Source: Ulota crispa (taxonomy: Eukaryota > Streptophyta > Bryopsida > Orthotrichales > Orthotrichaceae). Taken from it: DNA of 64,000 bases. A program made the translations under genes and the position numbers. The notes under the pieces are model-generated. The model was not told where the DNA came from and did no database searches. It was given only the letters and a program-made list of their open reading frames with translations. The stretch covers positions 870,501 to 934,500 of the forward strand of contig OY987245.1 in the NCBI GenBank assembly GCA_963920765.1. Reading direction: 5' to 3'. Shown piece by piece: positions 3,916 through 64,000 of this stretch (within the stretch, counting starts at the first letter, position 1; every line of letters begins with the position of its first letter).

Positions 3916-4197
3916 TTATTATATTTACTTGCACCATTGCAACAATAGTGTAGGAACAAAGTCTTGGAAAACCACTAGCCCGTAAAAGGCTCTACTTTGT
4001 AACTTTATATCTTATTCCACTGGAGGTGTTGCAAGATGCATAGTCAAAATTCTTGAGGGTAACTTCTCCGGACCAGAGCCAATAATCATGTGGATGTATG
4101 TGAAAACAATTAATAGTAATTGCTTCCCAGTCTGCTTCCACTAGCAAAAGGACAACATGATGACCCTTCAAAATATAGTGGTATGTCATTCTTTTAA

Positions 4198-5125
4198 CCC
4201 CTATACGACTATTGTCCCTTTGGGGGACAATGGGGATTTTGGGCATGTACCTATGGTTAAACTACTTTGTGTAATTTTCTGAAACTTTTATGGAAGCAGG
4301 GGAATTCAAAGATTTATGTGGGCATCTAATTTCTTCCTCATTTTGACATTTGACAAAGAAGTTATGCAAAAATTTGTGCTACCCGCGGGTGGGAGGGCAA
4401 TCCAAGCAGCCCAAAAACTTCTTTAAAATTTAATATTTTCTAAAATTAAAATTTGAAATTGGTTCTTTTGATTTTGTTTACATGTGGGAAGCTTTGAATC
4501 ATTCCATTTCAATCAATGAGATGAAAGTTTTGAGATGTTTTAGTTTGTGGGCAGTTACGGATCCTCTAGTCTAAAATAAACTTTGAAGTCCTTTACTTTT
4601 CACAATTTTCAATATTTTGGAAAAAAACTAAACCAAAAGAAGTAGATTGTTTATTACAACATTATAACTGTGAGGATTTGCATTTTTCATTTCAATAATT
4701 AAATTCTAAACGATTTAGTGATTTGACTCATTCTTTTCTTCTTACTTACTATTTTTTTCTCATGTGTTGTATAGTTCTAATTGATTTGAAAATTCTCCCA
4801 CACATGCCTAACTTGGTCTTCTACATGGAAAAAATAAACCTCAACTTTGTGTAGAGCAATTTTTTTCATGTAAGAGTGCTCAAAGGCTTCTAAATTTTTT
4901 GGATAGCACGGAAAAAAACCTTAATTTTCACTTCAAGTGTAAATATCTCCCTCATCTCTATCTAGAATGATCTGAGTTTTTTCCCACAAGTACCTCTTCT
5001 AGCCTAAGGCAAGATCCTATGGTTGGATTTCCCAAAAAAGAAAAAAGAACCGACCTTCTAACTCATCCCCTAAAAGTGGCAATTTTCAGTGATTTTGACA
5101 GAAAAAGGGCTCAGTCCTTTAGGGG
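4198..5125 (+). mobile_element. TTAA-flanked (piggyBac-like) element a
   Basis: A 928-bp element with CCCCTATACG at the left end and CCTTTAGGGG at the right. It is bounded by TTAA at 4194-4197 and 5126-5129. A small subterminal palindrome (TGTCCCTTTGGGGGACA) follows the left end, as in most members. It shows the family interior 'gtgggcatctaattt..ttgacatttgacaaagaagtta' and the 'cctcaactttgtgtagagcaa' block. This copy serves as the empty-site reference for the insertion at 35.2 kb. It encodes no transposase. Confidence 0.8.
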
Positions 5126-5216
5126 TTAACGAGTGTTTAAAAGTGAAGGGCCCATACTTCTTATGGAGGAGGCTTAGTCTAGGCAAGACAACTTTCTCCA
5201 TATACCCTAAGCTTAA

Positions 5217-6103
5217 CCCCTAAATCCTTGAGTGTCCCCTTGGGGGACAAATGAGATTTTGGGCAAGTACCTACAGCCTCAATTTCTGTCCAGATTTTTT
5301 GAAACATTTTTTGAAGATAGGAAAACACACTAGCTTTTGGGGAATTTAATTTTTATTCCAATCCATGCCCAAAAGCAAAAGTTATGCCTAGATAAGCAAA
5401 AAATTATGGAGATTGGGCAGCAAAAAAAAATTACAAAAAAATTGATTTGATTTTGATTTTGATTTCTTCTCATAGGTTATAGTTATGCTTACATTTGAAG
5501 CTTTGATTCATTCCATTTGGATTAGGGCAATTCAAGCATCTTCTTAAAAAAATAACTTATAAACTTCATTTTTGGATGCAAGTTTAACATTTTTTCAAAA
5601 AAAGTGTTGAGGAGGGTGAAGTTTGCTTTTTAGAACAATCTCACTGTTGGGATTATTGTGTTTCAATTCCATTTCTGGGTTATTAACAATTTAAGTTTTT
5701 GTTCAATCTCAGACCTTCACCCACCTAATGATTTTTTTAAGAATGAAAATCAAGTATTTTTGGTTTTCATTTTTTCAAGATTCTTAACTCAATTTCCCAC
5801 CATAAAAAAATAAACCTCAAAACTCTGTAGTGCAAAAAAATTAAGTTAGAAAAGCTCAAAATCAAATAATCTAGTCATGTAAGGTGCAAAAAAGGTTGTT
5901 TTTTACAATTCAATTGCAAATGTCTTGCAATCTGTGTGGTCAAAGTTTATAGATTTTTGTGTGCACATTTCCATACAAGTCTAATATAAGATCCTATGGT
6001 TAGATATACAAAAAGACCAATTTTCAAACTTTTGTGTGTTTTGCAATAAAAATGACAATTTTGGATGTCTTTTGACAAAATAAAGGCCCGAGGGATTTAG
6101 GGG
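5217..6103 (+). mobile_element. TTAA-flanked (piggyBac-like) element b
   Basis: This 887-bp element starts CCCCTAAATCCTTGAGTGTC and ends GAGGGATTTAGGGG, bounded by TTAA at 5213-5216 and 6104-6107. Its interior differs from element a but matches element i at 45.46-46.28 kb in reverse orientation, which defines a second subfamily. Elements a and b are only 91 bp apart. No open reading frame of note. Confidence 0.8.
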
Positions 6104-6194
6104 TTAAGCTTACAATAGATATTTCCAGGTCAACAAGTAACTTAAGTTTACTACAACGCCATGGTTCAGTACACCTGTACGCTGCAATACCCGA

Positions 6195-6234
6195 CCCCAC
6201 CCCACCCCACCCCACCCCACCCCACCCCACCCCA
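6195..6234. repeat. (CCCCA)n microsatellite
   Basis: Eight tandem CCCCA/CCCAC units. The minus-strand frames read it as Gly-Trp/Gly-Val repeats and are artefacts. Confidence 0.9.
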
Positions 6235-19193: not shown

Positions 19194-19568
19194 TAAGGTA
19201 GGTAGCTTGAATTGCTACCCCTTTCTTAAAAAGAGTCCCATAGATAGCTCAAGAATGGATATGAGGTGGTTCTTGAACGGACCCGCTTTAGTCATAGAAA
19301 AAATGCATATTCTACTGTAAAAACCAATCATACTTCTAGATTTCACCTCATCTATTTACAAGTTACAGAAGAATAGTTTAGGGAAGACCTAGAATTATAA
19401 ATAGGTGCATATTCCAAAAAACTTTGAAAATTCATCAACAATTCAATAATGCTTTAAAAAAACATGAAAAAAATGTGTTACACTTGCCATTCATTTCTAT
19501 TTATTTGGAAAATTAGACAAAAATCTGCTTGTCTCAAGATGCCCATGAGAAGGCAGATTAGCCGTTTA

Positions 19569-22390
19569 CCCCTAGAGGCTCAAGCCCTTTCTTTTGTGAA
19601 AATCATTGAAAACTGCCACTTTTTGGGGAATGAGTAGAAAGGTAGGAAAAAAGTTCATTTTTGGAAATCCAACCATAGGATCTTGCTGTGGACTATGGGA
19701 GGTATTGTGGGAAAAATGTGAGCTCATTCTAAATGTAGAGGAGTGAGATATTGACATCTGAAGTAGAAAAAAAAAAAAAAAATTTATGCAGCCCAAAAAT
19801 TTCAAAAGCCTTTGACCGCTCATGTATCAAAAAAATTGCTCTACACAAAGTTGAGGTTTATATTTTCCATGTAGAAGATCAAATTAGGTATGTGAGGGAG
19901 AATTTTCAAATGAATTGGAGGTGTGAATCATACTTTGTAAAGCCTTACAATGGTGTAACGCTATGAAATTTGCATACACTAGGCAACATTGGAGGATTTA
20001 TGTCAAATTGAGAAATCTGGAAAAGAATGTTGTTCTGGTACCTCCCAAGCTGAATTTGGGCTTTTATCTTAGCTTTCTAAAGTTGAAAAGATTCTTATTG
20101 GAGCTATTATACGCTGATCTAGTCAAAGTTCAAGGAGTATTTTTTGAGAGTTTTTTGTATAGATACCAAAGCAGTCTATCAGCAGTATAGTCATATTGGA
20201 GCAAGTGTGCATCTTTCTATACTCAAGTTAACAGATAAGTTCGGATACAAGCACCATGACAGGGTTGATTCTACTTCGAGAACTTGCTTGCACAGAGTCC
20301 AAGTCTTTGTATCATTAGGAGAATACAAAGGGTCAAAAGTTTGCCTTTTAATCAAAAGAATTTTTTGGCATCTCTCGTGACTCGTGAGGCATTGAGGCAG
20401 TAATGTACATCAGTGATAGTGCAACATCAAGCCTATCAAAATTTTGAGAAAAACAACTTTTTTCAAAAGGACCAGAGTCACTAGACCAACCCGTGTATAA
20501 TCAGGCTTAGTCATGACAAAGCGACCATATGGAATTCCAATATAGTAATGTTTCCTGGGTAGTCCCGAAGACTGTAAAAAAACATTTTTATAGTTGAAAA
20601 GCATGTGTCCTCAAATAAGCAAAAACCAGCGTAGATATTGAAGTTTACAAGCAAGATTTGTCCCTCTAAAAAAAGCATAGTTTCTAGAGTTATAAAGGTT
20701 TAAGAAAGTAGTAGAATAGAGCTAGAAAATCGCCAATTTCTCCAAGAGGTCCAAGGCCTCACATGTACCCATCTCAAACAATCGAACAACCCAATGTTAG
20801 TTGAGAGAGGTTGCACAAGATGTTTACAGTCCTAGGACGCGTGTTATTGCTTTCACAAGGAGAAAATTTAGCAAAGCACAAAACTCCTACTCCAAACCTA
20901 AGCAAATATTGAACCTGTGAAGCATTCTGTGAAAAGCCCATGATTGTGTGAAAGATAGCTCCGAGCTCAAGTGGTTGGTTGCCGTAGAGTTAGCACCAAT
21001 GAGTATATAGTATTCACTCTGAGACTTGTGGGGTGAGCAAACATCAGCTTTGCCTCTGCAGTATTGGTATTCCTCTAAGAGTAACAGCGTACAGTCAAAG
21101 AGCTAATTACTCAGAGGTCCAAGAAGAGAGGCCATAACCAGAGGTCCTGGTTGAGAAGTTTAGACTGTTGGTGCCTTGGTGGTAGGCCAGAAGCCGTGCC
21201 TCCCAAAAATTTTGAAAAAGCCATGCCTAATTTTGCTTAGCAATAGATTAGCTGCTACTCATTAAAGCAACCTTCTTAATTATTGGTCGGCTTGTAAAAA
21301 GCTCAAGGGCTTTACCATAGTAGTATTTACTAAGCCAACGTATACGGATCTTGTGACCAATCTACACCTGCCCATTAGTAAATGGTGAGTTCAGATCGAG
21401 ATTGTTGAATATATTTGTTTATCCTTGCCTTGTCAACGTGAAAGACTGAAAAGCGTGTTTTTATAGAAAGGAATGCTAAAAGAAAATTTTAAAGAAATTC
21501 TAAAGAGCTTCTAAAGAACATGTAAGTATATATAGCCTCATGTTTATAAGCATTTATCAATAGATAGTTTTTATGCTTAAATAGGTCTTATGCAAATAGA
21601 TGGTCATTATTGTATGAAAAGTAAATAAGTATACTTTACATACCATAGTATAGGATGAGTTAGTTTTAGGACCTTACTATTCAATGCCTTTAGCCCAAAG
21701 TATAAGAGGTAGTAGAACCTACTTATATGTCAAGTAGAGTCTTGCCGTTCATAGTGGCATCTAGGGTGTATACTCTATAGGAGTCCCTCTCAATAACCAA
21801 TTAGATAGTTTGACGTGATACATGATCATGGAGTCAATCACTAGTCATTTGACCTTCTAGCAAGAGGTTTATGCTCAAGCAATATTTGCTATGCTTGTAA
21901 CTTAGAATCTATGAGCAAAGTCTTTAAGGTAGAAGTTTGCATAGAAATCTTGAAAAAAGAAAAAAGAAAAACACAAAGAGCTCAAAAAAGTAAAGCACCA
22001 AATTTTACAAGGGGCAAAAGGAATGGAGGTTTGGGAGTCCCATACCTACCGCAAACTAAAACTTCTCATAACTTTCATCTCATCAATCAAAATTGAATGA
22101 TTCAAAGCTTCCCACGTGTATAAAAGTCTAAGAACCAATTTCAAATTATTATTATAAAAAAATGCAATTTTTAAAGAAGTTTTTGGGCTGCCTGCCCTCC
22201 CCTGTTCTTCAAAAATTCATGCATAACTTCTTCAATAAATGTTGGAATGAAGAAAAAATTAGATATCCACGTAGATGTTTGAATTCCCTATCTTCCATAA
22301 AAGTTTCAAAGAATCACACAAAGTAGTTTAGCCATAGGTACATGCCCAAAACCCCAATTGTCCCCAAGGGGCCACTTGGGCCTTTAGGGG
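19569..22390 (-). mobile_element. TTAA-flanked (piggyBac-like) element c, 2.8 kb, nested
   Basis: The left end is CCCCTAGAGGCTCAAGCCC and the right end is GGGCCTTTAGGGG. The flanks are TTTA (19565-19568, one change from TTAA) and TTAA (22391-22394). Outer parts align with elements a, d, e and f ('gaaaactgccact', 'gcaaaagttgaggttta', 'acacaaagagctcaaaaaagtaaagcacc'). An unaligned insert occupies roughly 20021-21945. It has no transposase-length frame; the longest are 71-78 aa. Confidence 0.75.
20021..21945. other. Unidentified 1.9-kb insert inside element c
   Basis: Relative to element f at 36.5-37.0 kb, alignment of c stops near 20020 and resumes near 21945. The intervening sequence has no homologue elsewhere in the window, no obvious terminal repeats and only short frames. 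It could be the ancestral interior lost from smaller copies or a separate old insertion. Confidence 0.45.
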
Positions 22391-22415
22391 TTAAAGTGTT
22401 GCTTTTCAAGCTACA

Positions 22416-32790: not shown

Positions 32791-34590
32791 ATGCATTGTG
32801 TCATGTTGTGTCAATTGAATGGCCATTTTTCATCCAAAACATTAAATACACTCTTGCAACGCTAAAGGGAGTTGGATTCAAAATTCTCTTGGCTTGAGCT
32901 TCTCTATACAAAAGTTCACTAGTACAAGGTTTCAAAGTTAGAAAAATTTATCATTCAATACTTGCTTGATGGGGGTATAGGTTTTATCCCGATAGAAAAA
33001 ATATATATTGTGGAAGAGAGTTAATATTTGGAACCTTGGGTCAATAATGAATTATTGGGCATATTTAGGGTATTTCAATCTTTGTGTTGGTTGTAATATG
33101 CCTGGAAGTTTTGTACAGTGATCTCCCTTACCAAGGTAGTTGAGAAAAAGTAACCAATAAAAAAAAACTGTCAAGCTATTTTATCCCATGATAAGCAATT
33201 GGCTTTCATTGATAAAATTTACATGATACAAGGCTTTCCTTATCTTGATTTTGAAGCCTTCTATTGTTACAAATTCTCCACATGTTATATTAGTTTTCAA
33301 CATTTGAGATCATTTTGTGTTAAACATAAATGTGATTGGAAATTTTCCAAAAGTCTTGACCTCTTTTTACATACTTGTTTTGAACTTTTCAAGGCTTGTA
33401 AGAGGATAAATATTTACTAAAGCTATTTACTAAAGCTAGTCTAGTCATATTTCTCCATTTACAAAAGTGGACTAGATTTCTTTCAATATTCATTGGTTAT
33501 CTTTTTACCCAACAAAAAAATTGGATTATTTCCTACGACATCATTTTTGCACTAGCAAATTATTTTGTAATCTTTAAAAACTATAGATTTTAATCCTTTA
33601 ATGCTATTGAATTGTTACTTTGGAGCCAAAAATATTCATATATGTTGCATTTTTTGAACTAGCATAGCTTTTCATCATAAGAAGGTTAACTTAAAGATCC
33701 TTTCAATGTTCTTGAGATTGATAATGGAATTTTCCACAAAACTGTATCAAAGAAGTTTAGAGTTACGGTTCAACTATTTTGCCTTTTTGAAGTAGTTTCA
33801 AACAAAGCATTCGCAAATAAGTACCAATTATTTGTGAGATTCTTCCACAAACAACGACATTTGCTTGTATGAACTCAATGTTATTGGTTAATTCTTTGTA
33901 GCCACTTGCACTAAACTACTCAAATCTATTGTTGTCATGCAATTTTGATGTTTTTATTGAAACAATTCTACAACAAAAGAGAAAAAAACACACACACATA
34001 CTCAACTCTTTGGTATAGGACTAAAAGAGCGAAGCAGAAGGTGCAAGAACAATATTGACCATAAAAAAAAGGCAAATCACAATTGACAAGGAAAAATCAT
34101 ATTGAAGCACTGCTTGGCCTCCAATCACCTAAAATTCAAAACGTGAGGAAAGATGAGTAAATAAAATTCGCCGTATATGGATAAAGAGAGTTCGAAGATT
34201 CCTGAAGGTTTTTCCATCTCACCAATTAAAATTTGAAGTCCCACTTTCTTTAAAGCCAAAACTTCCAAAAAGTGATGCCATGTAAGCAAACAAAACTTGA
34301 GACTTGGGACATAGTGTGAAATGCCAGGTCCCAACATTTGACTTTATACCGATCATATTCTCGGATTTCAATGGGACTTAGGATGTGGAACGCAGTTTGA
34401 ACCACTCCTAAGTTCCACATCTTGGTTACTCACATATTAGCCCTTTTGGAAATTTTGGCACCAACAAAGGTGAGCTTTTACTCAAAATTTGATTTCATCA
34501 TTTTACTAAACCCAACTTTTAGCCCAAGTCCCACAATTTTTTTTGCATACAATACTCATGGCTTTTATTTGTACTTGTTTTTGCTCTTAT
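32791..34590. other. AT-rich intergenic stretch with a dispersed repeat
   Basis: No gene is seen and the frames are 73 aa or less. About 34090-34335 resembles 57650-57960; both contain 'cacaaagtgatgccatg-aa-caaa' and 'gagacttgg-a-atagtg'. This indicates another dispersed repeat of unknown type. Confidence 0.45.
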
Positions 34591-36180
34591 CCCCTAAAGG
34601 ACCACTATCCTCTTAGGGGATAATTGGGATTTTGGGCATATAGTTGTACTATTTTTTATGATTTTTTGAAATTTTTATTAATGGTGCATAATTCCAATAC
34701 CTACAAGGGCATCTTACATTTTCTTCATTGTGACATTTAACAAAGAAGCTATGTAAGAATTTATCAAAATTAGGGGAGGACAAGCAATTTGGGCATGGCC
34801 TCTTCTTTGTAAGTGGGAATTGACTCCAAAGAGGGTTAGCCCTTCCAGGCACAATGTGTGACCACTTGGGCAAAGGGTAGTGAAAGGGGCGTGTATTGGG
34901 GGATTCGCAACTCATTCCTTTTGCCCCTTGTAAAATTTGGTACTTCAATTTTTTGAGTTGTTTGTGTACTTTTTATTTTATTTTAATTTTCCAAGTTGTC
35001 ACAAGCTAAAATCCTTTAGTTTTCACTATTTGGATCACTAGAATTCACATACTTGAAATGCACATAATGCCTCCAATTTTGCCTAATGTATATGCAAATT
35101 TCATGAGCTTCTGGCATTGCAAGATTTTATATTATATGTAGTACAAATCCAATCCATTTGAAAATTCTCCTACACATACCTAACTTGGTTTTCTACATGG
35201 AAGACTTAACCCCTAAAGGCCCGAGCCCTTTTTTCCGTGAAAGTCACTGAAAACTGCCACTTTGGGGGGAATGAGTAGAAAAGTAGGAAATAAAGTTTGT
35301 TTTGCAAATCCAACCGCTAGATCTTGCCTTAGACTAGAAGAGGCACTTGTGGGAAAAATTTTAGCTCATCCTAGATGGAGAGGAGGGAGATATTTTCATC
35401 TGAAGTGAAAAATAGGTTTTTTCCATGTTGTTCAAAAAATTCAGAAGCCTTTGACCACTCTTACATGGAAAATATTGCTCTACACAAAGTTGAGGTTTAC
35501 TTTTTCCATGTAGAAGACAAAGTTAGGTATGTGTGGGAGAATTTTCAAATCAATTGGAACTATACAACACATGGGGGAAAATAGTAAGTAAAAAGAAGTA
35601 AAGAATGAGTCAAATCACAAAATTGTTAAGAATTTAATTATTGAAATGAAAAATGCAAATTCCAACAATTTAAATGTTGTAATAAACAATCTACTTCCTT
35701 AGGTGTAGTTTTTTTCCAAAATATCAAAAATTGTGAAAAATCAAGGACTTCAAAGTTTACTTTGTCAAATGTGAGAATGAAGAAAACATTAGATGCTGCT
35801 TAGGTCTTGGAATTCCCTACCTTCAACAAAAGTTTCAAAAAATCACAAAAACAAGATTAACTATAGGTACATGCCCAAAATCCATTTGTCCCCCTAGGGG
35901 ACAATTGGGCCTTTAGGGGTTAAACCTCAACTTTGTGTAGAGCAATTTTATTATTGTAAGAGTGATCAAAGGCTTGTGAAAATTTTAGGTACAAAGGAAA
36001 AAAAAAATTCTTTAGTTTGGATGTCAATATCTCACTCATCATCATCTAAAATGAGTTGATCTTTGCCAACAACTACCTTCCATAATCTAGGGCAAGATCC
36101 TATGGTTGGGTTTTTAAAAATATATAATTCATACCTTTCTACTCATTTCTTAGAAAATGATAAATTATAGTGATTTTTAC
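34591..36180 (+). mobile_element. TTAA-family element d, interrupted by element e and truncated
   Basis: Begins CCCCTAAAGGACCACTATCC after TTAT (a decayed TTAA). The interior parallels element a through 'taacttggttttctacatgga'. It is broken at 35206-35209 by element e and continues at 35924 with CCTCAACTTTGTGTAGAGCA as in a. It lacks its own right end: after 'gtgatttttac' element f begins immediately. Confidence 0.75.
35210..35919 (+). mobile_element. TTAA-flanked (piggyBac-like) element e, nested in d
   Basis: A 710-bp element from CCCCTAAAGGCCCGAGCCC to GGGCCTTTAGGGG, with TTAA at 35206-35209 and 35920-35923. Removing it and one TTAA joins 'ggaagac' to 'TTAAacctcaactttg'. That matches the uninterrupted sequence in element a at about 4826-4850 ('ggaaaaaataaacctcaacttt'). 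Confidence 0.85.
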
Positions 36181-36184
36181 ATAA

Positions 36185-37461
36185 CCCCTAAAGGACCAAG
36201 CTCTTTTCTCTGTGAAAGTCACTGAAAACTGCCACTTTTGGGGGAATGCATAGAAAGGTAGGAAAAAAATGGTAATTCAACCATAAGATCTTGCCTTAGA
36301 TTATGGGAGGTACTTGTGGGAAACAAATTAGCTCATTTTAGATGTGGAGGTGAGATATTGACATCAGAAGTGGAAAAAAAAATCTATGTTGCCCAGAAAC
36401 TTCAGAAGCATTTGATCGCCCCTATATCAAAAAAGTTGCTTTACACAAAGTTGAGGTTTATTTTTTCCATGTAGAAGACCAAGTTAGGTAAGTGTGGGAG
36501 AATTTTCAAATGAATTGGAGGTGTGAATCATACTTTGTAAAATCTTGCAATGCCGTTAGGCCCTAAAATTTCCATATACACTGGGCAAATTTTGAGGATT
36601 AATGTAAAATTCAGAAATTTGAATCACTTTAATTCAAGGGAAAATTTCTTGGATACCCCTAAAGTTTGCAATATTTTCATAAATACCCTTGCTTTTTTCA
36701 GAAATATCACAAATACCCTTTGACCAAAATATTTAGGCGTCGTTTTTTTGTTGTGCATGCCACTTCCCTTCTTCCGTTGTGTGCACGCATAACAAGAAAG
36801 AAGTAGTGTGTGCACAAAGGGAAAAAGAAGTGACATGCATAATACAAAAAACTCTTAAGTTTTTTAGTCCAAGGGTGTTTGTGATATTTCTAAAAAAGCA
36901 AGGGTATCTATGAAAATATTTCAAACTTCAAGGGTATCCATAAAATTTTCCCTTTATTCAAATGGTGAAAACCAAGGAATCTTAGTCTACTACAACTTGG
37001 AAAAAAACAATAAAAAAACAAATACACAAAGAGCTCAAAAAAGTAAAGCACCAAATTTTACAAGAGGCAAAAAGAATGGAGATTTGGGAGTCCCATACCT
37101 ACCCGCAAATAGAAACTTCTCACTCATCAATCAAAATTGAAAGATTCAAAGCTTCCCACATATGCATAAACCTAAAGAACCAATTTCAAATTTTCATTTT
37201 TGAAAAGTAAAATTTTAAAAAAAGTTTTTGGGCTGCCTGCCAAACCCCGTTTTTTAGAAGTTCATGCATAACTTCTTCAATAGATGTTGAAATGAAGAAA
37301 AATTTAGGTGCCCACGTAGATGTTTGAATTCCCCATCTTCCATAAAAGTTTCAAAAAATCACACAAAATAGTTTGGTCATAGGTACATGCCCGAGGTCCA
37401 TTTATCTCTCGAGGAGACAATGGTCCTCTTGGGGATAAGAAAAGGCTTGATCCTTTAGTGG
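36185..37461 (+). mobile_element. TTAA-family element f, hosting a Mutator-like MITE
   Basis: Begins CCCCTAAAGGACCAAGCTCT after ATAA (36181-36184) and ends GATCCTTTAGTGG before TTAA (37462-37465). Total length is 1277 bp, of which 315 bp is a family C MITE. The interior matches elements c and e. No coding capacity. Confidence 0.75.
36638..36952 (+). mobile_element. Mutator-like MITE family C, copy 3, nested in f
   Basis: A 315-bp element with ends GGGAAAATTTCTTGGATACC and GGTATCCATAAAATTTTCCC. The flanking 9-mers TTAATTCAA (36629-36637) and TTTATTCAA (36953-36961) differ at one base, supporting a 9-bp target duplication. It is younger than its host element f. Confidence 0.85.
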
Positions 37462-37465
37462 TTAA

Positions 37466-37954: not shown

Positions 37955-38844
37955 TAAGAGCATCTCCACTCCAGCACGTAAGGAGAGTCGGAACCGCAAT
38001 TTGTGCATATTAACCCCAAAGGACCAAAGTTCCCTCGGGGGACTTTCAAGATTTTGGGCATGTATAGGGACTTTAAGGATTTTGGGCGTGTATTTATGGC
38101 TAAATTACGTAATTTTTTGAAATTTTTATGGAAGATGGGGAATTCAAAGATCTGTGTGGGCATCTAATTTTTACCTCATTTCGACATTTATTGAAGAAGT
38201 TAAAAATGAATTTATGAGAATTTTAGTTTGGCGGGCATCCCAAAAACTTCTTTAAAAATTGCATTAAAAAATATAAAAATTCAAGGTTAGTTCTTTAGAC
38301 TTACGTATATGTGGGAAGCTTTGAATCATTCAATTCTAATTGATGAGATGAAAGTTATGAGAAGTTTTAGTTTGCAAGTAGGTGTGGAGAATCTCAAAAC
38401 AATGCCTACATGCAAACTAAAACTTCTCATAACTTTCCTCTCATTAATTAGAATTGAATGATTCAAAGCTTCCCATATATACATAAGTTTAAAGAACTAA
38501 CTTCAAATTTTTATTTTAAAAAAATGCAATGTTTAAAGAAACTTTTGGGCTGCCCGCCAAATTAAAATTCTCATAAATTCATTTTTAACTTCTTCAATAA
38601 ATGTCGGAATGAGGAAAAAAATTGGATGCCCACATAGATCTTTGAATTCCTCATCTCCCATAAAATTTTCAAAAAATCACGTAAAGTAGTTTAGCCATAA
38701 GTCCGTGCCCAAAATCCCATTTGTCCCTGAAAAGGGGGCTTGGTCCTTTGGGGGTTAAGAGCCATCAGATCATGATCTGATGGCTCTTAATATGCGCAGA
38801 TTGCGGTTCCGACTCTCCTTACGTGCTGGAGTGGAGATGCTCTA
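37955..38844 (+). mobile_element. GAGCATCTCC foldback MITE, split by element g
   Basis: Two arms, 37955-38013 and 38759-38844, are near-perfect reverse complements over about 55 bp (AAGAGCATCTCCACTCCAGC end). Without element g, the host is an almost perfect palindrome of about 146 bp centred on GATCATGATC. AGAGCATCTCC ends recur at 38.84, 49.4, 61.4 and 61.8 kb. Confidence 0.85.
38014..38754 (+). mobile_element. TTAA-flanked (piggyBac-like) element g, nested in a palindrome
   Basis: A 741-bp element from CCCCAAAGGACCAAAG to CTTGGTCCTTTGGGGG, with TTAA at 38010-38013 and 38755-38758. The host is a palindrome, so its other arm (TATTAAGAGCC read on the opposite strand) gives the exact pre-insertion sequence: a single TTAA. 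The element itself has a long internal inverted repeat around 38380 (CCTACATGCAAACTAAAACT against the left half). Confidence 0.9.
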
Positions 38845-39560: not shown

Positions 39561-39858
39561 GCAATCATGGTGACTAGCCCATCTTTTAAGGGTCAAGTAA
39601 CATTCCTAACAATGGGAGCAAGATGTAAATCTTTTGCGTTTATTCTATAAAGAAAAATCAATTTATTGGCTCTCAACCAATTTGAAAGAGGTTTTGCATT
39701 AACACAAGCTATATAAGAGGGAATTGTGTAGGATTTTTTTCTAAGAACCAGGTTGAATTTAATGAGTAAGAATGAAAAGCTAGTCAAATACAATTATTCA
39801 CTTTTTGTTCTTTGCTATTCAAGACAAGCATAGATGCTCATAAATGACGAGTTGTTAA

Positions 39859-39943
39859 CCCCTAAAGGACCAAAGGGATGTTTTTGGTCCCTGCTCATAC
39901 TTAGGGGCCTTTGTAGGCACGGTGATCCCCTAGCACTTAAGGG
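39859..39943 (+). mobile_element. Miniature TTAA-flanked element h (85 bp)
   Basis: Starts CCCCTAAAGGACCAAAGGG after TTAA (39855-39858) and ends ..GCACTTAAGGG before TTAA (39944-39947). The left end matches the family over 14 bases; the right end is weaker. It would be an extreme deletion derivative. Confidence 0.55.
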
Positions 39944-39947
39944 TTAA

Positions 39948-45454: not shown

Positions 45455-45458
45455 TTAA

Positions 45459-46276
45459 CCCCTAAATCCCTGGGGTCATTATTTTGTCAAAAGATACTCA
45501 AAACTGCCTTTTCTATTGCAAAAAGTAAAAAAGTTTGAAAATTTGTCTTTTTGCATATCTGACTATAGGATCTTGTACTAGACTAATATGAAATTGTGGA
45601 AACAAAAATTCAAAACTTTTGATCGCTAAGATTGCAAGATTTTTTGCGTTAAAAGTGTAGAAAACAAACTTTTTTGCACCTTGCATGATTAGATTATTTG
45701 ACTTTGAACTATTTTAACTTCAAATTTTTGCACCACAGAGTTTGGGACTTTATTTTTTGATGGTGGAAATTTGAGTTGAGAATCTTTAAAAACAAACCAA
45801 AACAAAACTACTTAATTTTCATTCTTAAAAAAACATAAGAACACCATATTCATTAATTTGGGAAAAATGGTACATTTTGGGACTTTCAAATTTTGAGGTG
45901 AAGGTTTTAGGTGATCACCTAAAAGTCTAAAATTGAGCTTAGCGTTTTTTGAGGTGCCCAAAAAACAAGATTGTCCATAACTTTCTCATAACTAGTCCAA
46001 ATGGAATGAATCAAAGCTTTAGATGAAGAAAAAACTATAACCTATGAAATGAAGTATGTATATATATATATATGGCCTGATTTCCATAAATTTTTGCTTA
46101 TCTAGGCATAACTTTATCTCCCGGACATAGATAGGAGTAAAATATATATTCCCTAAAAGCTAATGTGCTTTTCTATCTTCAAAAAAAGTTTCAAAAAATC
46201 AAGACAAAAATTGAGGCCGTAGGTACCTGCCCAAAATCCCATCTGTTCCTTGAGGGGACAGTTAGGGATTTAGGGG
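45459..46276 (-). mobile_element. TTAA-flanked (piggyBac-like) element i
   Basis: An 818-bp element, left CCCCTAAATCCCTGGGGTCA, right GTTAGGGATTTAGGGG, flanked by TTAA (45455-45458 and 46277-46280). It is the reverse-orientation sibling of element b. A fragment of MITE family B replaces part of its middle. Confidence 0.85.
45840..45945 (-). mobile_element. MITE family B fragment inside element i
   Basis: Starts AACACCATATTCATTAATTT and runs through the family block 'ttttgaggtgaaggttttaggtgatcaccta', almost identical to copy 2 at 9.78 kb, then ends abruptly near GAGCTTAGCG. About 150 bp of the host, as seen in element b, is missing here. Confidence 0.8.
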
Positions 46277-46280
46277 TTAA

Positions 46281-52116: not shown

Positions 52117-52120
52117 TTAA

Positions 52121-53031
52121 CCCCTAAAGGCCCAAGGAGCCCACTTTGGGCTTTAAGAGAACTTGGGCAAGCTCTATTGACTTCATAATTTGGAATTTTT
52201 TTATGAAATTTTTAGGATGGATGCTACTCATCATGATCTACATGTGAAGCTTTATTTCATGTCATCCCGATAAGTAATGCAAAAGTTATAAGGTTTTTTC
52301 AATTTCAATGTCAAACCAGGTAGTAAAAAATATATTCTAAATTTTTTATTTTTATTTTTATAAAATTGTATAGAATGATACCTACTCAAAAAAAATTGAA
52401 TCACTCAATTCCAAATGATGAGGTAAGAGTTAAAAGGGATTTTATTTTGCGAGCAATGAAGGTAGGAAGAGGGTAGAAAAAACATATAAAGTTATCTTTT
52501 ACTCTCAATTTTGAAAAATTTCAAATTAAAATTAAAATTAAAGTTACTAATTGTCTGTTGGAGCATTCTCACCATTGGGATTAACAATTTTCAAATTCTT
52601 CCAAAACTTATTAGCATATAAGTTACATCTTTCATTCATCAATACCTTTCACTTTACAATTTTTGTAAAAATGAATCCAAATTTTTTTTGGTTAATTTTT
52701 TTATATATACTTTCAACCCATTTTCCAACATATTGCAAAAATTGCACAAGGAATACAACATACGTGTTTTTCTCTAAAAAGTTTGAAAAACAAAACTTCA
52801 CCTTCTAAAAGGATTAGAAAAGCCTACATTTTGAAATTTGGGCACATTGATCTTGCAATTGGTGGGGATATTCATTCTAAAATTTTGGGACAATGTAGTT
52901 GTGCAAGTCAACTAAAGGATCCTACAATTCAGATTAGTGAAAAAATAAGTTTCAATGAATATTTTGACCCTAATTTGGGGACTAGTATTTGAAGAAGTTT
53001 TGGGCCTCTAAACACAAAAGAATTTTAAGGG
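52121..53031 (+). mobile_element. TTAA-flanked (piggyBac-like) element j
   Basis: A 911-bp element, left CCCCTAAAGGCCCAAGGAGC, right GAATTTTAAGG(G), flanked by TTAA (52117-52120 and 53032-53035). The interior ('ggatggatgctactcatca', 'gtgaagctttatttcatgtc') matches only element k at 63.2 kb and defines a third subfamily. Confidence 0.75.
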
Positions 53032-53035
53032 TTAA

Positions 53036-56300: not shown

Positions 56301-56617
56301 CCCTGCAGATCTGCCGCTGTGATCCTCCGAAACAGATCGATTTGACACTGGGCCAAATTCCTTGCGAGAAGCTGAGATCCGGTGCATACAGACCGTGATC
56401 GGCACAAATCCAAACCCTAAAAACGAGCTCCTCTTCCGAAATGAAGAAGCTCGGCAAGAGCAAGGCTTCCACAGAACGGGCTTCGAAGTACAGCGGTTCC
56501 GGTGTTCTGGATGAACGATTTATGGATGAATGTATCAATGCATAGATGAGCGGCAAAGTGAGGTATTGCTACTCGGGGCAGGACCAGCAAGAGAAATGTC
56601 CTTGACATGACGCTTAA

Positions 56618-57644
56618 CCCCTAAATGCCCATAAGTGTTTTTCTCGTTTTTGAAATGTAGTTTTGAAGTTTGTGATTGGTTCATGTAAGATCAATATTAA
56701 CATCAAAATTGTAGCCGTAGAATCTTGAACTTCAAGGTTTCTAGCTTGAACTTCAAGGCTTCTAGCTTGAACTTCAAGGCTTCTAGCTTGAACTTCAAGG
56801 CTTCTAGCTTGAACTTCAAGGCTTCTAGCTTGAACTTCAAGGCTTCTAGCTTGAACTTCAAGGCTTCTAGATAGCATTATCCAAAAAAATCCAAAACGGT
56901 CACGTGGTTTTAGATATTTGTATTTGAATGTGGATGATTATGGGATTTTTTGCTTTTTTTTTGAAACGCCCAAAACTTCTAATGTAAATTGGTAACTTTT
57001 GGATACAATATTGAGAAACAACAATTTAGAATGCTTTAGTGTTTGTTGTTGTTACTTGAAAACTAATGACTTCCCTTCCAAATTCATGACCATAGTTTCA
57101 CAAATGAGCTTGCAATGCAACTGTCAAAACAAAACCACCTAATACAAGGACATTTTTTAGCTTTGGTTATTGACCAAAAATCATCATGAATGAAAGAAAT
57201 TCAACTGTGAATGAATTCTAAATTTTATAACAAAGAAGTTCCAAGTGGAATTAGTCCAAAAGCACTTTTAGATTTGGTTAGATAACAAAATTTTAGTAAA
57301 AGAGCCCTAATGCCCAAGGGAGTGCCCATATGAAATCTTCATTTTTTTCTCAACTTGATGCATGTCTTTTCAATGTGGCAACTTGTCATAGACTGTATGA
57401 CACTATTCATGACACTATTCACAACACTATCCATAACACAAAAGGTATACTTGTAGTTTAGCTTTCACCAAAAATAACTGAAATATGGTATGGAGGAAAT
57501 GAAAATTGAACTCTAAAACTAACTTCAATCCATAACCTCTCCTAAAAAAATCCTAAAAACAATCAAATTTGTGCCTTCAATACAATTTCAAAATTTCCCA
57601 AAATTTTTTGAGCACCAAAATTTGGTGCCTTGGGCATTTAGGGG
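56618..57644 (-). mobile_element. TTAA-flanked (piggyBac-like) element l
   Basis: A 1027-bp element from CCCCTAAATGCCCATAAGTG to CTTGGGCATTTAGGGG, with TTAA at 56614-56617 and 57645-57648. The interior is unlike the other subfamilies and includes the 21-bp array. It separates the V-ATPase c'' gene from the GULLO gene and lies in the c'' upstream region. Confidence 0.85.
56724..56870. repeat. 21-bp minisatellite (7 units)
   Basis: Seven consecutive copies of CTTGAACTTCAAGGCTTCTAG. The first has one change and the rest are essentially identical. The unit holds the palindrome CTTGAACTTCAAG. The minus-strand frame reads it as a seven-residue repeat (ARSLEVQ). It lies inside element l, near one end. 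Confidence 0.95.
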
Positions 57645-57649
57645 TTAAC

Positions 57650-62635: not shown

Positions 62636-63101
62636 TGCTATTGGTTGAATGCTTTTACCATTTGAACGGATGAGGGAAATTATTGTCCAACATTGGAAAT
62701 AAGAAACACTATGTTTCTCCGAAGATGGAATTCTAGAGGTCGCCTGGTGATGCTCTTCTGATGCATAATAAACTCTCGCACTATTCAAAAGCGACAAAAC
62801 ATATAACATCAACTATTGAGGCATTTCACACATGGTAAAGGAAAAATATGAATGTGCTAGAATTGTCGGATCTTCAAGAATTGATGGTGGGTCCAAGCAT
62901 TAACAAAGTAGTTTCCATATTCAAAACTTGGAAATTCCAAGGTTTTCTGACACTGTTGCCAATGTTCTCACTACCTATATTCTTTTTGGCCGTGGTACTT
63001 TTCCTTTTACAATTTTTTTTCTACAAATGCAAAGTTTTTACAAATTCTCTTCATTTCTCATGAACTTCACAAGGTTAACAATCTTGTTTCCAATCACTTA
63101 A

Positions 63102-63172
63102 CCTCTAAGCGCCCAAGCGGACCGTTTTGGTCAAGGATCCTGTCTTATTGTGAAAAGTTGGGCTCTCAAGGG
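63102..63172 (+). mobile_element. Miniature TTAA-flanked element m (71 bp)
   Basis: CCTCTAAGCGCCCAAGCGG to GGGCTCTCAAGGG between TTAA at 63098-63101 and 63173-63176. The ends match each other imperfectly. It shares its right TTAA with element k. Confidence 0.5.
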
Positions 63173-63176
63173 TTAA

Positions 63177-64000
63177 CCCCTAAAGGACCAAGGAGCCCTC
63201 TTTGGGTTTTATGAGAACTTGGGCAGGCTCTCTTGATTTCATAATTTGGAAATTTTTCATGAGATTTTTAGGATGGATGCTACTCATCATAATCTACATG
63301 TGAAGCTTTATTTCATGTCGTTCCAATAAGTAATGCAAAAGTTAGAAGGTTTTTTCAATTTCAATGCCAAACTGGGCAACAAAAAATATGTTTGAAATTT
63401 TTTAATTTTTTTTATTGAGTTGTATAGATTAATACCTACTCAAAAAAGATTGAAACACTCAATTCCAAATAATGAGGCATTAGGAAAAATATGGGGCCCT
63501 AATAAGGCCCTGAGTTTGGGGGGGTCCCTAGCCATGGGAACCCGGTTCCCAATAAAATCATGCAGAGGTTGAGGTGGCATCTTTGATGCCACATCAGCTT
63601 TTTTGATTTTTTTAATTTACAAAAATCAAAAAATCAAAAAAGTCAAAAAAAAATCTTATTTTTTTCTAAGACTTTTTTTTGGATTTTTGGATTTTTGGAT
63701 TAATTTTTTCTAACCATCAGCAAGGGCTGGTTCCCCACATTGGGAACCAAAAAAATGAAGGGCTGGAATTGTTTATAAAGGCCTTCTTGAGGCCCCATAT
63801 TTTTCCTAATGTAAGAGTTAAGAGGAGTTTTATTTTGTGGGCAATGAAGGTAGGAAGAGGGTAGAAAAAACATATAAAGTTATCTTTTACTCTCAATTTC
63901 AAAAATTTTCAAATGAAAATGAAAATTTAAGTTACTAATTATCTGTTAAAGCATTCTCACCATTGGGATTAACAATTTTCAAATTCTTCCAAAACTTATT
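63177..64000 (+). mobile_element. TTAA-family element k (runs off the window)
   Basis: Starts CCCCTAAAGGACCAAGGAGC after TTAA (63173-63176) and is a close sibling of element j throughout. It is interrupted by another element at about 63478-63811. Its right end is beyond the window. Confidence 0.75.
63478..63811. mobile_element. MITE with CATTAGGAAAAATATGGGGC ends, nested in k
   Basis: The left end CATTAGGAAAAATATGGGGC and right end GCCCCATATTTTTCCTAATG are perfectly inverted. A second inner inverted pair (GGGAACC..GGTTCCC) follows. Comparison with the uninterrupted sibling j ('aatgatgaggtaagagtt') shows the join, but little or no target duplication is left. The interior is low-complexity A/T. 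Confidence 0.8.

Follow-up and report, generated by a model that had tools for sequence, protein, structure and literature searches.

What are the many short, TTAA-flanked repeats in the 64,000-nucleotide stretch of Ulota crispa DNA analysed here (the window), and where is the transposase that moved them? The original prediction, made from the letters of the window, read them as a transposon family with piggyBac hallmarks. piggyBac is a genome-engineering workhorse that has been studied chiefly in animals. We find that the window elements are almost certainly non-autonomous, MITE-like members of piggyBac in a moss, internally deleted from 5-8.3 kb elements that encoded a DDE_Tnp_1_7 transposase, and that the moss genome holds thousands of short, decayed piggyBac-type fragments along with decayed full-length elements of the source kind.

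Terminal motifs and their TTAA flanks

Exact pattern counting across the genome returned 15,477 + 15,495 copies of the terminal motif TTAACCCCTAAA on the two strands, as compared to 41 + 36 for a reversed-pattern control, and TTAA stood directly before 4,486 of the 5,341 copies (84%) of the longer terminus CCCCTAAAGGMCCAAG. These counts come from the genome-wide search for termini and TTAA that had been proposed with the original prediction, and they bear out in substance its claim of a TTAA-flanked family with piggyBac hallmarks. Within the window, TTAACCCCTAAA was read eight times and TTTAGGGGTTAA six times, with neither found in any of 60 first-order Markov simulations. The definition of piggyBac used here, as worded in the accessible text of PMC2872659, is that of 12-19 bp terminal inverted repeats with a CC[C/T]T tip; repeats of this kind are present, for instance in the transposase-bearing element L012 (see below), whose two terminal repeats CCCCTAAATGCCTAAA and CCCCTAAATGCCTAAG agree at 15 of 16 positions.

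Could the terminal motif simply be telomere-like CCCTAAA sequence scattered by repair? The tip reads CCCCTAAA, and a CCCTAAA telomere array does stand at the sole readable chromosome start of the three examined. In the window, however, where CCCCTAAA and TTTAGGGG words number 21, the motif is a single unit, is joined straight to TTAA in 14 of those cases and is paired with an inverted copy, and element interiors are homologous across many copies, such that we regard a telomeric origin as exceedingly improbable.

Elements in the window

Thirteen elements or fragments had been listed, of which 12 are two-ended. Nine of the 12 bear TTAA on both sides (4198-5125, 5217-6103, 35210-35919, 38014-38754, 39859-39943, 45459-46276, 52121-53031, 56618-57644 and 63102-63172), and decayed flanks of the reported kinds remain, with TTTA at the left of 19569-22390 (TTAA at right), ATAA at the left of 36185-37461 (TTAA at right) and TTAT at the left of 34591-36180. 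The list does not hold for the right end of this last element, ..GATTTTTAC followed by ATAA, which is no terminus; its homology to a relative (4835-5103) ends 26 bp before the relative's own end (5129), and we therefore consider its right terminus lost. Likewise, the claim that elements start with CCCCTAAA and end with TTTAGGGG is literally true of just four of the 12 (5217, 35210, 45459 and 56618), with tip variants among the remaining window elements (e.g., CCCCTATA, CCCCAAAGG, TTTAGTGG, TTTTAAGGG, CTCAAGGG). Elements make up 12,065 of the 64,000 bases (18.9%), and the window, where coding sequence for a BAK1-like kinase and a GULLO2-like protein also lies, has about twice the genome-mean density (8 exact left ends where 3.6 would be expected).

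From left to right, with flanking tetranucleotides counted in and no strand assigned unless stated, an unlisted and unpaired left end, TTAA plus CCCCTAAACGCTGAAGG, lies at 1477-1497. Two non-autonomous elements with both TTAA copies follow, one at 4194-5129, which has a left-end palindrome (TGTCCC..GGGGACA) and matches both ends of the transposase-bearing L038 (1-175 to L038 1530-1705 at 77%; 588-936 to L038 9436-9784 at 78%), and one at 5213-6107, which possesses a perfect 20 nt inverted repeat, TTAA flanks included, and lies beside a CCCCA tandem array at ~6195-6234. L038 is also matched at both ends by a related 2.8 kb element at 19565-22394 and by the element at 36181-37465, each with the decayed left flank noted above. 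A decayed host element (34587-36184) holds a nested one with TTAA on each side (35206-35923), whose ends match L038 over 353 bp at 76% and ~150 bp at 75%. At 38010-38758 is a fold-back element with TTAA on each side, which consists of a single end present twice in opposite orientation and sits within an arm of a different, palindromic repeat (~37957-38843). Further along, a non-autonomous element with TTAA on each side (45455-46280) matches L013 137-410, as does 5213-6107, and another TTAA-flanked element (52117-53035) is less certainly paired, with a left tip of CCCCTAAAGGCCCAAG and a divergent right tip of CCCTTAAAATTC. On the minus strand, 56614-57648 would be an internal-deletion derivative of an L012-like element, both L012 ends being matched (1-129 and 237-670 to the L012 3' end at 81% and 80%; 975-1035 to the L012 5' end at 80%). 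Inside it, ~56724-56870 is a 21-bp tandem repeat expansion that looks private to the window copy, since the 39 other main matches start only beyond it (query ~237). The last feature, at 63173-64000, is the left end of an element leaving the window, CCCCTAAAGGACCAAG, with its terminus read directly.

Mini-elements with tips of this same type, ~79-93 bp long, were seen at 39855-39947 (93 bp, with its TTAA copies both present and 87% identity over the first 75 bp to the mini-element abutting L038), at 63098-63176 (79 bp) and at 1450-1533 in L038 joined coordinates. Those in L038 and at 63098 each lie directly against a larger element, the latter meeting its neighbor at a common TTAA. Genome-wide, elements abutting at a single common TTAA (GGGGTTAACCCCTAAA) number 594 + 595, with 0 for the control and a naive expectation of ~190 if right ends are taken to number 20,000 and TTAA to be as dense as in the window; this may reflect a preference for the elements' own ends or plain clustering.

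Empty sites

The palindromic repeat around the fold-back element offers a filled and an empty site side by side. Its mirror arm, read on the matching strand, runs ..GCGCATATTAAGAGCC.. with one TTAA, whereas the filled arm (38014-38754) has two, so one TTAA was doubled upon insertion. For the nested element (35210-35919), scoring of the best 40 of 4,728 candidates gave 42 rows; in 40 of these the joined flanks were uninterrupted (39 at 78-81% and one at 76%), and the remaining two are the flanks in the window itself. Related copies inspected there carry a TTAA variant, and the nested site thus shows an absent insertion more than it shows TTAA; the mirror arm is the cleaner empty-site proof.

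These observations bear on a second alternative, in which the repeats are PIF/Harbinger (Tourist-like) or Tc1/mariner (Stowaway-like) MITEs whose AT-rich flanks read TTAA by chance. PIF/Harbinger duplicates a 3-bp TTA/TAA and Tc1/mariner duplicates TA. Both are among the five superfamilies of a 207-genome plant MITE survey (PMC12550479, main text), and a 3-bp TTA/TAA target might pass for TTAA. On the other hand, an exact TTAA sits outside the CCCC tip in the 84% of long termini given above, the doubling between the mirror and filled arms is of the whole four-base TTAA rather than of TTA/TAA or TA, and the transposase linked to these ends is DDE_Tnp_1_7; we find such a MITE origin scarcely credible.

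Transposase genes and their decay

If the window elements are piggyBac derivatives, a transposase should be found elsewhere in the genome, and the original prediction had called for one that is active or recently lost. A profile search returned at least 120 matches to PF13843 (DDE_Tnp_1_7; best E 1.3e-73), a lower bound in that 116 of 527 candidates were scored, with some rows being pieces of one locus. One moss copy matches both piggyBat (9c0f, E 1.2e-21) and Trichoplusia ni piggyBac (6x67, 1.1e-16), the alignment to 6x67 spanning the first two catalytic motifs and that to 9c0f the third as well. We take the catalytic aspartates of T. ni piggyBac to be D268, D346 and D447. Aligning 32 transposase frames (the 30 best matches plus two added for being without stops), we observed aspartate at the four motif positions in 29, 24, 27 and 27 frames, with the catalytic aspartates recognizable. 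Where motif aspartates are lost, 16 of 21 have become asparagine, which fits G-to-A change (C-to-T on the opposite strand) and may reflect methylation decay. Pairwise identity among the 32 ranges from 26 to 81% (median 34%), indicating many old lineages side by side.

The transposase half of the expectation was therefore borne out, at loci that share these termini (see below), and the copies found are decayed. In-domain stops interrupt 29 of the 32 translated transposases, and no intact transposase was found among the at least 120 PF13843 rows; ten have no stop in the match, and two of those ten cover more than 90% of the model. Among stop-free copies at that coverage, L039 has asparagine at the third catalytic position and L019/L040 is without recognizable ends in 8.8 kb. 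Inside the 64,000-nt window no convincing transposase remnant was found (best E 0.082). A C-terminal Cys/His spacing is visible by eye in L011, L012 and L015, and Pfam gave no zinc-domain family in those three tails.

Linking the ends to the transposase loci

Around the 30 best transposase matches, a search within 1.5 kb recovered a GGG-type right end at one of 30 and a CCC-type left end at none, a result that misleads because the elements are 5-8 kb. With long flanks, paired TTAA plus CC[C/T]-type inverted ends were assigned at nine of 15 transposase loci, so that DDE_Tnp_1_7 genes are observed inside elements with these ends: L010 (6.0 kb), L011 (8.0 kb), L012 (5.7 kb), L013 (5.6 kb), L014 (5.1 kb), L038 (8.3 kb), L039 (6.6 kb), L041 (5.0 kb) and L042 (5.3 kb). 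The other six gave no confident pair, with no ends at L015 and L040, one side at L018, L021 and L075, and a weak pair at L076. For L011, L038 and L039 the assigned left end differs from the top-scoring one, L011 end 2005 and L038 end 1530 having been picked by subterminal homology and L039 position 29 by eye.

How well do these ends belong together? Under a strict test (at least 12 of 16 letters, ungapped, C-rich tips) five of 13 loci pass. Summed over the 10 loci where both types of end are present, the within-locus terminal-repeat score was 92, a value reached by 0 of 20,000 partner permutations, and individual scores overlap the range of mismatched pairings: 25 of 122 cross-locus pairs reach 9, as compared to 5 of 10 own pairs. 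The strongest link between window elements and transposase is sequence shared at both ends, spanning ~60-470 bp: five window elements, four against L038 (4194, 19565, 35206 and 36181) and one against L012 (56614), match both ends as internal deletions would.

This linkage bears on a further alternative, in which the elements belong to another TTAA-duplicating superfamily and the piggyBac transposases are mere neighbors. Kolobok and Sola3 are TTAA-specific superfamilies that duplicate TTAA as well, and the transposase search was run with the PF13843 model. Yet termini of this same type border the transposase loci, the within-locus repeat match goes beyond all 20,000 permutations, and homology joins window elements to the transposase-bearing L038 and L012 at both ends, making a Kolobok or Sola3 origin highly unlikely. 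Nor, within that choice of models, did we see TA or TTA/TAA flanks genome-wide or another superfamily's transposase at these termini, either of which had been named as grounds for rejecting piggyBac. The reading as non-autonomous piggyBac-like elements thus gains support from the paired ends and the both-end homology alike.

Subterminal palindromes and a proposed mechanism

As had been claimed, several elements share a subterminal palindrome. Clear copies of TGTCCC(C)..GGGGACA stand at 4194, at 5213 and at the right end of 35206, and weaker ones at 38010 and at the right end of 45455. Among the nine transposase-bearing elements, 5' ends are enriched for a short palindrome immediately internal to the terminal repeat, relative to the interior (sum 52, reached by 0 of 20,000 resamples), and 3' ends are not (sum 35; 7,398 of 20,000 resamples), in an exploratory test devised after the ends had been inspected. 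Taken singly, 5' ends gave p <0.05 in three of nine and p >=0.197 in five of nine, with none at L014, and the L038 3' end also scored high (0.023). The palindrome sequence varies by family.

By analogy with known systems, the transposase would recognize the ~16 bp terminal repeats (CCCCTAAAGGMCCAAG and relatives) and, at the 5' end, the family-specific subterminal palindrome, and would then excise the element at TTAA and reinsert it into a new TTAA site, so that TTAA again stands on either side. In piggyBac and piggyBat, according to the accessible text of PMC11707139, the transposase dimer uses its cysteine-rich domains to bind a palindrome of this sort, and the same binding by a C-terminal cysteine-rich domain, along with hairpin cut-and-paste and seamless excision, may be presumed for the moss elements from known piggyBac biochemistry.

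Age and abundance

We evaluated age for two families. Besides the window's own copy, 5213-6107 has 39 copies at 84-88% and one partial at 76% (best 40 of 4,249 candidates), and 56614-57648 has 39 other main matches at 79-83% and 38 shorter end pieces at 74-85% (best 40 of 2,314 candidates). With their best-matching copies only 79-88% alike, the burst is old, and neither of these two families is likely to have moved recently. As a rough estimate, with ~15,500 exact left ends on each strand and a length of 0.9 kb assumed for every element, such elements would amount to ~5% of the genome.

Relation to known elements and significance

The kind of element is already known, and what is notable is the moss host and the copy number rather than the mechanism. 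With piggyBac (Trichoplusia ni) and piggyBat (Myotis lucifugus) the moss elements share a related transposase, the TTAA target and CC[C/T]-type tips, as well as near-tip palindromes and unlike ends (PMC11707139, in part). They differ in their moss host, in lengths of 5-8.3 kb, in decayed transposases and in end sequences, with a zinc tail seen by eye only. The coral CMITEs, piggyBac/TTAA MITEs of Acropora, are likewise short, non-autonomous and TTAA-duplicating, have links to piggyBac-like transposons in their own genome, and at ~100 bp resemble the moss mini-elements, as far as the accessible text of PMC2872659 describes them. The corals' ~1,600 estimated copies in 200 Mb (same text) contrast with the 275 Mb moss genome, where each strand has ~15,500 exact left ends, and the window elements, unlike CMITEs, range from 79 bp to 2.8 kb. 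The usual five-superfamily plant MITEs are also high-copy, short, non-autonomous and plant-hosted (PMC12550479, main text), whereas the moss elements add the TTAA duplication and the piggyBac linkage.

The original prediction held such elements to be rarely described from land plants, which is fairer than calling them absent, as plants are named, in passing, among the hosts of piggyBac-like elements in the accessible portions of a 2021 paper (PMC8086355) and of PMC10813416. A fern genome table lists PiggyBac at 1,230 hits and 0.00% (PMC6890710, table), the main text of the cbUloCris4.1 genome paper has neither 'transpos' nor 'repeat' (PMC11803377), and the main text of the 207-genome survey uses 'piggyBac' and 'TTAA' zero times each (PMC12550479). 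Titles and abstract openings on piggyBac in plants and related topics, with subscription literature mostly outside that scope, yielded no description of native piggyBac in a moss. A Niphotrichum match was rejected, the word there being 'piggybacking'.

piggyBac is a major component of this land-plant genome. The genome offers ends and transposases of plant piggyBac as a natural collection, and it suggests that TTAA elements may fall into a blind spot of MITE surveys in plants. More tentatively, and with somewhat less confidence than an even balance would allow, we propose that in this moss lineage piggyBac fills the niche that Tourist and Stowaway MITEs occupy in flowering plants, having persisted as many anciently diverged lineages, each retaining a distinct 5' subterminal palindrome that may co-evolve with the zinc domain by which it is read. 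If this is true, plant MITE annotation built on five superfamilies would overlook or misfile piggyBac MITEs.
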